From Thermosynechococcaceae cyanobacterium Okahandja (GTDB lineage Bacteria > Cyanobacteriota > Cyanobacteriia > Thermosynechococcales > Thermosynechococcaceae), in NCBI GenBank assembly GCA_041530395.1, contig CP136945.1:1426001-1490000 (forward strand): 64,000 bases of DNA, in the 5' to 3' direction. Both the position numbers and the translations under genes were made by a program. Numbering within the stretch: position 1 is the stretch's first letter; every line of letters starts with the position of its first letter. Below the pieces are notes generated by a model. That model was not told the DNA's origin and searched no databases. It saw only the letters and a program-made list of their open reading frames with translations. Below are positions 31,668 to 36,689 of this stretch, piece after piece.

Positions 31668-31876
31668 AGGGATGTGTTCTCGTGGTTTCTAGCGGCAACT
31701 CCATAGATTGTTGTATCAAGATTCTTGAACCGCCTTCACGCTTGTTTGCAAGTCTTTACCTTTTTTCCGCTTAGTAATCAACCCCGAACTCTGGCTCAGG
31801 GCCGTGGCAGATGACCTGCCCCCAATTGGGCGACCCGTTGGCCACAATAGAGAAAACCGGCACAAGGGAAATGGCC

Positions 31877-33130
31877 ATGACAGTTGAACTGGTTGCTAAG
31901 CTAAGCGATGCCGTTATTTCTGCCCAGCAGGGAGCGCAGCGCCAATTAGAACTAACCCTGACGGCACAGCGGCAGCAGCAGGAACGCGCCCCCCTCAATC
32001 TTTGCCTAATTTTGGATCACAGTGGTTCGATGGCGGGGGAGCCACTGGCCACGGTGAAGCGGGCGGCTCAGTCTTTAGTGGATCGGCTGACAAGGGAGGA
32101 TCGCCTTGCGGTGGTTGCCTTCGATCACCAGGCAAAGGTGTTGGTGCCTAACCAAGTGGTGCAGGATAAGGAAGCCATCAAGGCCAAAATTGCCACCCTC
32201 GAAGCGGGCGGTGGCACCGCCATTGATCAGGGGATGAAACTGGGACTCGAGCAACTGGCCCAGGGCAAACAGGGCAGGATTTCCCAAGCGTTTTTACTTA
32301 CCGATGGCGAGAATGAACACGGCAACAACACGCGCTGCCTAGAGTTGGCCAAGCTGGCAGCAGAGTACAACATTACGCTGAACACCCTCGGGTTTGGGGT
32401 GCATTGGAACCAAGATGTGCTCGAGCAAATTGCCGATGCGGCCACGGGGCGGCTGGTTTTTATTGAATACGCCGAGCAGGCGATCGCCAGTTTCCAAGCC
32501 CTCTTTCAGCACATTCGTACCGTTGACGTTACCAATGCTCACGTCCTTTTAACCCTAAGTCCTGCGGCGCAACTGGCGGAGTTCAAACCCATCACCCAAG
32601 TGGCACCCGACACCATTGAGCTAAGCTATGAACCCGAAGGCCCAGATCAGTACACCATTCGGGTGGGGGATCTATCGGCCACGATTAAGCGCACCCTCTT
32701 GATTACCCTCTATACCCAACCCCTGCCGGTGGGCAGTCACGTGATCGGCACCGTGCAGGTACGTTACGACGATCCGGTGCGCCAACGCTCAGGTCTGCTA
32801 TCGGAGCGGGTGCCCCTAACCGTTGAAGCGGTTGCCGACCATCGGCCAACAGTGGATCCACAGGTGCAACAAAGTATTCTGGCCGTCGAAAAATATCGCA
32901 AGACCCAACTTGCGGAAACCAAACTCCAGTCGGGGGATACGGTCGGTGCCGCCACCTTCTTGCAAAGTGCCGCTAAAACTGCCCTGCAAATGGGGGATGC
33001 CGAAGCTGCCAAAGTGCTTGAGGAATCCGCTACTGAATTGCAGCAGCAATCTGCCCTCAGCGAAGCTGCCCGCAAGCGCACCCGCATTGCCTCGAAGACG
33101 GTCTTGAGCAACTCGCCCCCCTCAGCGTAG
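31877..33130 (+). CDS. VWA-domain protein
   Basis: A 417-residue von Willebrand factor A protein from ATG 31877, with AAGGGA seven bases upstream. The MIDAS metal site is complete: DHSGSMAG, T in GGGTAIDQG, and D in LTDGENEHGNN. A C-terminal beta-rich half and a final helical segment follow. No signal peptide. Proteins of this layout are common in cyanobacteria and bind partner proteins in a metal-dependent way; the partner is unknown. It is convergent with the SAM hydrolase gene, overlapping by nine bases. Confidence 0.85.
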   Translation: MTVELVAKLSDAVISAQQGAQRQLELTLTAQRQQQERAPLNLCLILDHSGSMAGEPLATVKRAAQSLVDRLTREDRLAVVAFDHQAKVLVPNQVVQDKEAIKAKIATLEAGGGTAIDQGMKLGLEQLAQGKQGRISQAFLLTDGENEHGNNTRCLELAKLAAEYNITLNTLGFGVHWNQDVLEQIADAATGRLVFIEYAEQAIASFQALFQHIRTVDVTNAHVLLTLSPAAQLAEFKPITQVAPDTIELSYEPEGPDQYTIRVGDLSATIKRTLLITLYTQPLPVGSHVIGTVQVRYDDPVRQRSGLLSERVPLTVEAVADHRPTVDPQVQQSILAVEKYRKTQLAETKLQSGDTVGAATFLQSAAKTALQMGDAEAAKVLEESATELQQQSALSEAARKRTRIASKTVLSNSPPSA

Positions 33131-33898
33131 CCAAACGGGATCACCGTTACGGCAGCCCAAATGGTGTTGGGCGCTGCCACCTGTCACAGCCACTTCAATA
33201 AAGCCGTGACTGCCCACAAGGGCAATACAGGTCCCCAGAGGGCGATCGCCATAGGTTTTTGCGACACTCAGCCGTTGGTCAGCAATCTCGACAATGCCTT
33301 GACGACCCTCGATCAAGGCGGCAGGTAGCGTGGTGATGACGTTCCCAAAATGATCAATGGCCTGTACCCAGCCCTGCACCCCCTCTAACGTCATCAGGTA
33401 GTCAAGCTGCGGCAGACGGACAAGGCGGCTGGGATCAAGGGCAGAACCGAGGGTTGCCAAGGGAACACCAGCGGCCAAGTGCGCCGCCACGGGGGCAAAA
33501 ATATCACGGCCATGGAACGTGGCACTGGGGGGTTGACGCCAGAATTGGGGACGGTTTAGCTCGACTACCGCTTCAACGGGGTAGTGTTGGAGCACATGGC
33601 TAAATACGCCATTATCCGGTCCGACACAGTACCCCTGCACCAGTTTGAGGGCGATCGCCCGCCGGGACGTGCCCACCCCCGGATCAACCACCACCAAATG
33701 CACCGTTTGGGGTGGAAAATAGGGCAGCGCCTGCATCAGTTGAAAACTAGCGGTGCGACAGTCCTGGGGCGGCACCTGATGACTCAGATCCACGAATTGC
33801 ACCTGAGGATTGAGGGTGAGCATCACCCCCTTCATTACACCAACATAGACATCTGAATGGCCAAAATCTGTGAGTAGCGTTACCAGCGGCAGACTCAT
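33122..33898 (-). CDS. SAM hydroxide adenosyltransferase (DUF62 / SAM hydrolase)
   Basis: Cleaves S-adenosylmethionine to adenosine and methionine using hydroxide; relatives of fluorinases. Landmarks: LVTLLTDFGHSDVYVG at the N terminus, VVDPGVGTSRRAI, PDNGVF and GHIGF-like residues (VALVGSHGFIEVAV) near the end. The 258-residue length from ATG 33898 is normal; an upstream TTG gives two more. The Pho-box-like array lies 9 bases upstream of this start. The physiological role of such hydrolases is uncertain. Confidence 0.88.
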   Translation of the reverse strand: MSLPLVTLLTDFGHSDVYVGVMKGVMLTLNPQVQFVDLSHQVPPQDCRTASFQLMQALPYFPPQTVHLVVVDPGVGTSRRAIALKLVQGYCVGPDNGVFSHVLQHYPVEAVVELNRPQFWRQPPSATFHGRDIFAPVAAHLAAGVPLATLGSALDPSRLVRLPQLDYLMTLEGVQGWVQAIDHFGNVITTLPAALIEGRQGIVEIADQRLSVAKTYGDRPLGTCIALVGSHGFIEVAVTGGSAQHHLGCRNGDPVWLR

Positions 33899-33907
33899 CG
33901 GCAAAAA

Positions 33908-33948
33908 CGGTTAAGGTGCGGCACAGTTAAGGTTAAGTTAGTATTAAG
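33908..33948 (-). promoter_or_regulatory. Pho-box-like array (four octamers at 11-base spacing)
   Basis: Minus-strand octamers CTTAATAC, CTTAACCT, CTGTGCCG and CTTAACCG lie at exact 11-base intervals (33941-33948, 33930-33937, 33919-33926, 33908-33915), with three-base spacers. Three match the cyanobacterial Pho box pattern CTTAACCT bound by the phosphate response regulator; the third is degenerate. They lie nine bases upstream of the SAM hydrolase start and about 200 bases before the CHAD gene. Confidence 0.5.
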
Positions 33949-34149
33949 GTAGGATGGCGAACGCTCAATCAACGCTAAGTTTTACCTTATCTGTGGGATT
34001 ATTTGCGAGATGTCAGGTTCCAAGTACTCAGCTCATCACGTTGGGGTGCAGCGATGATGGCTCGGCAGTGGTAGGGGTTACGAGTCTGGTTTGAATAAAA
34101 ACAAAATAAGGTCATGATTTTGGGAGAAGACGATTCAAGGGGGGGCACC

Positions 34150-35148
34150 ATGGACACCCTAGGCCAAGTTGCGTACGAAGCGTTTGAAAAATACTACCGC
34201 AAAATAAGTAAGCATGAACCCGGTGTCGTGCGCGATCGCGATCCCGAAGCCATTCATCAAATGCGGGTGGGTCTGCGGCGGCTGCGCACTGCCCTTGAGG
34301 TGTTTCAACAAACGGTACGGTTACCAAAGGGGGTATCCATTCAGCGGGTTCGGACAACCGCTGGCAGTCTGAGTTTGGTGCGGGACCTAGATGTGATGAT
34401 GCTGGCGCTCAAAGAGCAGTACTACCCCCACTTGCCGCGGGGTGAGCAGCAGCAACTGGCCAAACTCATTAAAAAGCTGGATAAGCAGCGGGAAGAGGTT
34501 CTGCAAAAAGCGCTGCAACTGCTCCGCAGCGATCGCTACCGTAAACTTCAGCAGGGTCTAGAGGAATGGCTGGCGCAACCCCAGTATCGACCGATTGCCA
34601 ATGTCCCCATTGCCCTCATTGCCCCCGATATTCTCCTGCCCCTTGTGTCTCAGCTCTTGCTACACCCGGGCTGGCAGGTGGCGGTGGACTGGCACAGCGA
34701 TCGCCCCACATTTTTGGCCATTAGTGACCCTGCCGCTTTACTGGAGCAATCGGGGGAAGATCTCCATGATCTGCGCAAGCAAACCAAGCGGGTGCGCTAC
34801 CAAATGGAGCTATTTAGCCGTGTCTATGGGGATGACTTTAGCGAACAAGTTGCTGAGTTTGCCACCCTCCAAGACCTCTTGGGCACCCTACACGATACCG
34901 TCGTCCTGCACCAATTTTTCCACCGTCAATTGGGGCTAAATTTGCCGCAGGCATCCCCTTGCCTTGCGGAAATGATTGCCCTTGAGCAAGCGCGGCAGTG
35001 GCAACGGTGGCGATCGCACCAACAGGCCTACCTGACCGGCACCAAACGTCACCATGTCCGGGCAGTCCTGCTGATGCCCTGCTTAAACGGGATGGCCGGT
35101 GTTTCTGGGATCCCCTTTGAGACACCCCAAACTGCTAATTATAATTAG
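34150..35148 (+). CDS. CHAD-domain protein
   Basis: A 332-residue protein from ATG 34150 made of two CHAD repeats: RDPEAIHQMRVGLRRLRTAL at the start and EDLHDLRKQTKRVRYQMELF in the second half. CHAD domains use conserved His and basic residues on helices to bind inorganic polyphosphate. No catalytic domain is attached, so it is probably a polyphosphate-binding or granule-associated protein. The Pho-box-like array upstream would fit control by phosphate status, though its orientation favours the opposite gene. Confidence 0.88.
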   Translation: MDTLGQVAYEAFEKYYRKISKHEPGVVRDRDPEAIHQMRVGLRRLRTALEVFQQTVRLPKGVSIQRVRTTAGSLSLVRDLDVMMLALKEQYYPHLPRGEQQQLAKLIKKLDKQREEVLQKALQLLRSDRYRKLQQGLEEWLAQPQYRPIANVPIALIAPDILLPLVSQLLLHPGWQVAVDWHSDRPTFLAISDPAALLEQSGEDLHDLRKQTKRVRYQMELFSRVYGDDFSEQVAEFATLQDLLGTLHDTVVLHQFFHRQLGLNLPQASPCLAEMIALEQARQWQRWRSHQQAYLTGTKRHHVRAVLLMPCLNGMAGVSGIPFETPQTANYN

Positions 35149-35273: not shown

Positions 35274-36689
35274 ATGTTTGATGCCCTTGCCGAACGCCTT
35301 GAATCCGCTTGGAAAACCCTCCGCGGCCAAGACAAAATTACTGAAACCAACATTCAAGAGGCGTTGCGGGAGGTGCGGCGTGCCCTGCTCGAGGCCGATG
35401 TCAACCTGCAAGTGGCCAAAGACTTTATCGAAACTGTCCGCCAGCGGGCGATCGGGGCAGAGGTCATTGCCGGAGTACGCCCAGATCAGCAATTTATCAA
35501 AATTGTTTATGATGCCCTCGTCGAGGTGATGGGGGAGTCCCACAGTCCCCTTGCCCACGTTCAACCCCCCCCAACAATCATTCTGATGGCAGGCTTGCAG
35601 GGAACCGGCAAAACCACCGCAACAGCCAAACTTGCCCTGCACCTGCGCAAAGAGAACCGCGCCACCCTTTTGGTGGCCACCGATGTCTATCGTCCTGCCG
35701 CCATTGATCAGTTAGTGACCCTCGGCAAGCAAATTGATGTGCCCGTCTTTGAACTGGGAACGGAGGCCAATCCTGTCGAGATTGCCCGTCAGGGAGTGGC
35801 CCGTGCCAGAGAGTTGGGGGTCGATACCGTGATTATTGATACGGCGGGTCGGCTACAGATTGATACCGAGATGATGGCGGAACTGGCGGCCATTAAGGCA
35901 GTGGTGCAGCCCCACGAAACCCTGTTAGTGGTGGATGCCATGACCGGCCAAGAGGCGGCCAACCTCACCCGTGCCTTCCACGAGCAGGTGGGCATTACCG
36001 GTGCCATTCTCACGAAGCTTGACGGCGATACCCGTGGGGGTGCGGCTCTATCGGTACGGCAGATCTCTGGCCAGCCCATTAAGTTTATTGGCGTTGGTGA
36101 AAAGGTAGAAGCCCTGCAACCCTTTTATCCGGATCGCCTTGCCTCGCGCATTTTGGGCATGGGGGATGTGCTCACCCTTGTGGAAAAAGCGCAAGAGGAG
36201 GTGGATCTCGCGGATGCTGAAAAAATGTCCCGCAAAATCCTCGAAGCCCAGTTCGACTTTGATGATTTTCTCAAACAAATGCGGCTCCTTAAGAATATGG
36301 GGTCCTTGGCCGGAATTATGAAACTCATTCCGGGGATGAACAAAATTTCCAGCGAACAACTGCAACAGGGAGAGGTGCAACTCAAGCGGGCGGAGGCCAT
36401 GATTAATTCCATGACCCGCGAAGAACGTCGTAATCCAGAGTTATTGGCGGGGTCTCCGAGTCGCCGCCAGCGGGTGGCGAAAGGTTCCGGCTATCAAGTG
36501 GCCGATGTCAGTAAACTGGTGAGTGATTTCCAACGGATGCGCTCCCTCATGCAACAGATGGGCCAAGGCCAGTTGGGGATGCCGGGGATGCCGAGCATGA
36601 ATCCGATGGCAGCGGGGCGCGGTGGCCGTGGCTCCATGGCCAAAAAACCGAAAAAGCAGAAAAAACGTAAGGGCTTTGGAGTACTTTAA
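35274..36689 (+). CDS. ffh: Signal recognition particle protein Ffh (SRP54)
   Basis: Binds signal peptides and 4.5S RNA for co-translational membrane targeting. N domain (MFDALAERLESAW), G domain with GLQGTGKTTATAKLA, VATDVYRPAAIDQL, DTAGRLQID and TKLDGDTRGGAAL, and a methionine-rich M domain ending in a lysine-rich tail. 471 residues is normal. A hairpin with arms CGTAGC (35169-35174) and GCTACG (35182-35187) precedes it. The budA-like gene follows only two bases after the stop. Confidence 0.97.
   Translation: MFDALAERLESAWKTLRGQDKITETNIQEALREVRRALLEADVNLQVAKDFIETVRQRAIGAEVIAGVRPDQQFIKIVYDALVEVMGESHSPLAHVQPPPTIILMAGLQGTGKTTATAKLALHLRKENRATLLVATDVYRPAAIDQLVTLGKQIDVPVFELGTEANPVEIARQGVARARELGVDTVIIDTAGRLQIDTEMMAELAAIKAVVQPHETLLVVDAMTGQEAANLTRAFHEQVGITGAILTKLDGDTRGGAALSVRQISGQPIKFIGVGEKVEALQPFYPDRLASRILGMGDVLTLVEKAQEEVDLADAEKMSRKILEAQFDFDDFLKQMRLLKNMGSLAGIMKLIPGMNKISSEQLQQGEVQLKRAEAMINSMTREERRNPELLAGSPSRRQRVAKGSGYQVADVSKLVSDFQRMRSLMQQMGQGQLGMPGMPSMNPMAAGRGGRGSMAKKPKKQKKRKGFGVL

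Follow-up and report, generated by a model that had tools for sequence, protein, structure and literature searches.

The genome of Thermosynechococcaceae cyanobacterium Okahandja is a single contig of 2.82 Mb, and the DNA analysed here is a 64,000-nucleotide stretch of it, hereafter the window. Near its middle, a gene for a protein with CHAD, a polyphosphate-binding domain, and an oppositely oriented gene for a SAM hydrolase (SAM hydroxide adenosyltransferase) are separated by a segment that holds a tandem array of octamers resembling cyanobacterial Pho boxes (Table 1). The CHAD product is related to the solved CHAD chains 6qv5 and 6qv7, and a further in-frame ATG lies upstream of its assigned start, at 34114. 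Two minor features mark the outer ends of the gene pair: the SAM hydrolase frame (33122-33904, minus strand) and a VWA-protein frame (31811-33130, plus strand) converge with a 9-base end overlap (33122-33130), and a strong sigma-70-like promoter match (TTGAGA-N17-TATAAT, 11/12) occupies 35117-35145 in the final part of the CHAD gene and precedes a gene at 35274 that reads by eye as ffh.

Table 1. Genes, boxes and candidate promoter elements around the array (window coordinates)
Feature	Position	Strand	Remarks
SAM hydrolase (SAM hydroxide adenosyltransferase) gene	33122..33898	-	PF01887, PF20257; ATG 9 nt from array
Isolated third box CTTAACCG	33908..33915	-	Matrix score 8.3; two 11-base units from core
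Octamer CTGTGCCG	33919..33926	-	In register, not a Pho box; matrix score -5.9
TTAAGG, weak candidate -35 of CHAD promoter	33927..33932	+	Putative, read from the sequence; out of register with boxes
Core, adjacent Pho-like boxes CTTAATAC-taa-CTTAACCT	33930..33948	-	Matrix scores 5.0 and 11.4; portion retained in relatives
TAGGAT, candidate -10	33950..33955	+	Putative, read from the sequence; 17 nt after TTAAGG
CHAD (polyphosphate-binding domain) gene	34150..35148	+	PF05235, 5.4e-60; start set by alignment with relatives

Read on the minus strand from 33948 to 33908, the array is CTTAATAC taa CTTAACCT taa CTGTGCCG cac CTTAACCG; on the strand that codes for CHAD, its core becomes AGGTTAAG tta GTATTAAG. 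This reading confirms what a first-pass annotation had reported, namely that octamers at 33908, 33919, 33930 and 33941 stand in an exact 11-base register and that three of the four begin with CTTAA. A TTAAG at 33927 is out of register with the boxes. The array shares with the canonical cyanobacterial Pho boxes, the SphR sites of sphX, pstS and phoA, the 8-bp units of YTTAAYYW type, the 3-bp linkers and the 11-bp period given in the available text of the two source papers (PMC1906773, PMC13226834), and three of its units agree with the unit consensus (YTTAAYYW / CTTAACCT). It departs from them in two ways: it reads away from the CHAD gene, and where a canonical site has at least three tandem 8-bp repeats with 3-bp linkers, the window copy has just two adjacent good units and one more lying two units off.

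For scoring, Table 1 of PMC1906773 was the source of a Pho-box matrix, which draws on 25 of its 30 three-box rows; arrays were called significant at p<=0.01 against 100 Markov shuffles. The matrix scan assigns 5.0-11.4 to three of the four octamers, so that the array of four Pho-box-like units described earlier is reduced to three by the poor fit of the unit at 33919. Its best three-box total in the window, 13.8, is at the chance level, the best totals of Markov sequences of 64 kb simulated for comparison (n=30) averaging 13.4; the four-box score of 18.8 is the highest in the window, against a simulated mean of 11.2 and maximum of 18.9 (n=30). In the 410-base upstream region that holds it, the site reaches p=0.02 with both two and three boxes, and genome-wide the three-box pattern with at most two mismatches occurs at 9 places, compared with 6 for the reversed control. 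Taken alone, the window sequence is borderline and near chance.

The case for a genuine element comes instead from relatives. All 11 genomes of the genus, taken to be Thermosynechococcus, carry an 11-bp-spaced element before CHAD, TGGTTAAG-tta-AAATTAAG or a variant of it; the pattern GTTAAGN6TTAAG matches the CHAD upstream region in 10 of the 11, and the eleventh (L011) has a one-base variant. The best array of each genus genome scores 11.5-26.5 over three boxes (23.0-26.5 in L003-L007), and the best of these are comparable with the stronger pstS/sphX sites, which score 20.6-28.3. The element is less convincing in the sister locus L002, which has a two-box array at p=0.05 and is missing the third box CTTAACCG. 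In a footprint alignment of nine genus loci, the downstream leader is at least as conserved as the array, which is not set apart. As a separate observation, directly after the array nine genus genomes (L003-L011) share a conserved sequence with TTAA cores 10 bp apart, GGTTAATAAACGTTAATTT or one closely similar to it. Beyond close relatives, the element appears patchy and its orientation bias weak: among 80 named CHAD loci, mostly from Nostoc and related genera by their titles, inverted two-box arrays were found in 5, two of which are genus members. Conservation in relatives, on which the first-pass annotation had staked its reading, is thus complete within the genus and patchy outside it. Because it is conserved in relatives, and not from its scores in the window, we judge the element to be real and, on its sequence, to be a genus-wide cis-element of CHAD of the Pho-box kind, inverted with respect to the gene. 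Chance repeats would account for scores near background in the window and in its own genome alone, but conservation in 11 of 11 genus genomes, together with a spacing peak at 11 bp in a second gene family described below, already disfavours chance and makes it exceedingly improbable.

Comparison of loci also indicates which of the two flanking genes the array belongs to. CHAD matches were found in 26 of 29 genomes, giving 26 loci, and the SAM hydrolase gene adjoins CHAD in only one of these by tblastn, that of the window. Additionally, the regions upstream of the SAM hydrolase gene in 13 of 13 other genomes have no boxes at p<=0.01 on either strand. Because the SAM hydrolase gene rarely adjoins CHAD and is without boxes elsewhere, and because the genus keeps the element before CHAD, we assign the array, from sequence comparison, to CHAD and not to SAM hydrolase. 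The link to CHAD proposed at the outset is thereby borne out, and the role then considered for the SAM hydrolase gene is not. For that gene, the array has the canonical direction and lies close to the ATG, but the two comparisons above and the lack of promoter room between array and gene render a function there very unlikely, and the candidate was dropped. We judge the SAM hydrolase gene to be a neighbour through rearrangement rather than a conserved target; rearrangement would have set it on the other side of the array, where the array may incidentally influence its expression. A divergent promoter at CHAD, for which the array would be canonical, was likewise set aside: no consistent -10 was seen upstream by eye in the few loci inspected, and the upstream neighbour of CHAD is a tandem gene in 9 of the 11 genus loci (sodB, by eye from its translated end).

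The orientation of the array is its most distinctive property. In the genus, the best CHAD array points away from CHAD in 11 of 11 genomes and reaches p<=0.01 in 9 of them, and the pst sites detected in genus genomes have the canonical direction, reading toward their own gene. Over the 26 CHAD loci, two-box arrays at p<=0.01 are inverted in 14 and canonical in none, a count that excludes both the window's own locus (p=0.02) and that of L002. A matrix-free count agrees: TTAA pairs 11 bp apart occur at genus CHAD loci in the inverted form in 10 of 11 and in the canonical form in 0 of 11 (shuffle means 0.10 and 0.16, respectively). The spacing is less exclusive when the longer pattern GGTTAA..TTAA is used, which in genus CHAD loci occurs also at spacings of 10 (4 loci), 15 (2) and 16 (1). 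In a set of 60 class loci, hand-chosen among the matches listed (291 genomes, 225 with a match), the two-box array occurs in inverted form in 10 and in canonical form in 6, and the three-box array in 4 and 4; the corresponding figures for the 80 named loci are 5 and 1, and 2 and 2. These sets of 26, 80 and 60 loci share contigs (e.g. L107/L007, L108/L009, L109/L013, L136/L199), and their counts are not additive. By comparison, pstS/sphX-like loci show the opposite preference, with three-box arrays at p<=0.01 canonical in 15 of 30 and inverted in 2 of 30; the matrix-free count there is thin (3 of 30 and 1 of 30). Units of canonical sites read toward the gene they regulate, and the CHAD array does not, in keeping with the earlier remark that its direction is unsuited to ordinary activation of CHAD and that repression has to be considered.

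Inverted arrays also mark a second gene family. Across the 11 genus genomes, the three-box pattern with at most one mismatch occurs at 28 places, compared with 5 for controls, and sorting by sequence and position divides these into 11 of pst/sphX type (one per genome), 11 before DUF7219 genes, 3 before CHAD and 3 others; the DUF7219 context was checked in five genomes (G000, G004, G005, G006, G008), the remainder being assigned by sequence likeness. In a wider set of 30 DUF7219 loci, inverted arrays are present in 14, spanning seven families, and canonical arrays in 6, 5 of which also have an inverted array. Here the spacing is strict: over spacings from 6 to 16, GGTTAA..TTAA is found exclusively at 11, in 13 of the 30 loci, and the mirror pattern TTAA..TTAACC is found at that spacing in 4. 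The matrix-free count gives 13 inverted and 5 canonical among the 30. For the 14 loci with inverted arrays, the closest long frame upstream runs tandem to the DUF7219 gene in six (L281, L286, L287, L290, L301, L304). In six others (L282-L284, L291, L293, L303) it is divergent and lies over 250 nt from that gene; if these unproven frames are genes, the array would have the canonical direction for them. L292 is mixed, and L288 has no such frame. Two loci of one genus, L308 (p=0.02) and L309 (p=0.01), break this rule: their Pho-like boxes, some 113 nt ahead of the DUF7219 match, are exclusively canonical. DUF7219 genes occur in 55 of 59 class genomes, frequently in at least two copies, and a literature search on DUF7219 found no paper.

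In the window, the weak candidate promoter TTAAGG-N17-TAGGAT, uncalled by the promoter scan of the window, would place the two core boxes over the -35 element and the spacer. A common -10 offset was sought over 31 inverted sites and none was found; a TAnnnT hexamer falls on the last TTAA in 11 of the 31, and a T after an internal TTAA is equally frequent. At pst sites, a TAnnnT hexamer follows the third box by 19-20 nt in 13 of the 17 sites checked. At 7 of 9 genus CHAD loci (two read by eye), a TTTRAT hexamer stands at this same pst distance from the third unit, 19-20 nt downstream. Such a hexamer suggests that SphR, during phosphate starvation, might use the inverted array to activate CHAD, with a -10 about 19 nt downstream, much as PhoP acts on the phosin gene pptA of Streptomyces. 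That CHAD gene is PhoP-activated under phosphate limitation according to the available text of PMC8003754, and it resembles the present case, as here proposed, in placing a CHAD gene under a phosphate two-component regulator; it differs in its positive control, in its actinobacterial PhoP and in its operon with ppk (PMC8003754). We consider activation rather unlikely. Its orientation would be opposite to that of pst sites, the TTTRAT hexamer is without the usual A at the second position, and some arrays lie too close to a possible coding sequence. Of 43 loci with inverted arrays, 9 (L281-L284, L292, L303, L161, L216, L231) leave 7-31 nt between the array and a possible start codon, the distance to the ATG being 26 nt in the four of them that are DUF7219 loci of the genus. 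Activation of the pst type does not fit these 9 loci, since they have no room for pst spacing and a leader; a protein bound there would instead cover the promoter. The window array lies 201 nt from the CHAD start and 165 nt from the upstream ATG, so that the argument from close starts does not apply to it directly and extends to it by analogy only.

The protein that would read the array was sought among response regulators. In the window's own genome, L322 matches the PhoB model (TIGR02154) best, with a score short of the family's curated cut-off; the model has matches in 11 of 11 genus genomes, none of them above this cut-off. The nearest solved relative of L322 is RegX3 (201.7 bits), and that of a second candidate, L323, is MtrA. 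On its sequence, L322 appears to be an SphR-like regulator, and its orthology with SphR, which we infer, draws partly on features that we take to be characteristic of SphR. Of other candidate binders, Rre1, RpaB and RppA were dropped, the motifs given for them in the available text of PMC13421787 being different. Still, another regulator of the OmpR/PhoB family could read the AGGTTAAG direct repeats forward, and the likeness to reversed Pho boxes would then be family resemblance. In its favour, the inverted sites have strict TTAA cores with T preferred in the linker (25 of 43), pst sites often show TTTT or CTTTACC units instead, and the own genome has 38 PhoB-model matches, from which eight loci were read. 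On the other hand, the full 8-bp asymmetry of the units fits the published SphR boxes, the matrix biases the picked sites toward strict cores, and the three regulators with differing motifs offer no match; we regard such a regulator as unlikely.

The best explanation, which we advance tentatively, is that the array is an operator for a regulator of the SphR/PhoB type and represses CHAD under phosphate starvation, both the sign of control and the binding protein being inferences from sequence. It builds on the observed conservation of the element with CHAD in the genus, its 11-bp phasing, its match to published Pho boxes, its inversion and the presence of an SphR-like regulator gene. The array would consist of tandem Pho-type half sites, placed backwards to CHAD, for a response regulator of the PhoB/OmpR family, most likely SphR. 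When phosphate runs short, phosphorylated SphR would bind the array and cover promoter DNA, and CHAD transcription would fall; the CHAD protein would then be produced chiefly by cells that have ample phosphate and store it as polyphosphate. A literature search that took in full texts to a small extent found no expression data on a cyanobacterial CHAD gene.

Precedent for repression exists in the available text of PMC13226834, where urtA is the only known SphR-repressed gene and has its two boxes close to the -10, and where low phosphate represses, in an SphS-dependent manner, a synthetic promoter (PPi-neg) whose two boxes sit between -35 and -10. The CHAD array would resemble both in having two boxes near a candidate core promoter and, as proposed, in repression at low phosphate (PMC13226834). 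We tentatively favour repression of CHAD because inverted arrays lie too near possible starts in the 9 of 43 loci and because SphR repression has been published. The likeness to urtA and PPi-neg rests on box placement and not on box orientation: at p<=0.01, 0 of 30 urtA loci have inverted arrays, and canonical arrays are present in 2 of 30 (three boxes) and 3 of 30 (two boxes). As a trial of the notion that inverted means repressed, urtA thus lends no support and counts against the proposal, as do the activation of pptA, the TTTRAT hexamers at pst distance, the weak orientation bias at CHAD beyond close relatives, the divergent frames at six DUF7219 array loci, the canonical-only sites of L308 and L309, the failure to find a shared -10 offset and the degenerate state of the window copy.

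A broader proposal, which we hold to be possible but doubtful, is that a second, inverted class of Pho boxes in cyanobacteria marks a regulon, including CHAD and DUF7219, that SphR switches off when phosphate is scarce, with array direction and closeness to the start setting the sign of control. If true, such conserved inverted arrays at two gene families would add to the phosphate response a negative arm tied to polyphosphate storage, and would provide a function lead for DUF7219. It also suggests array direction as a simple rule for which published Pho-box scans could be re-read. Two further sites in the own genome, both outside the window, may be recorded here. One of its best-matching inverted Pho-box arrays (L248:1501-1529) precedes a gene for a small DUF7219 protein (L248:1556-1789). 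At L028:1501-1516 (genome positions 632753-632768) stands TTAAGTTAAAATTAAG, which is also the core of the CHAD arrays of several relatives, and the gene that follows it is ammonium-transporter-like on a by-eye reading of its translation.
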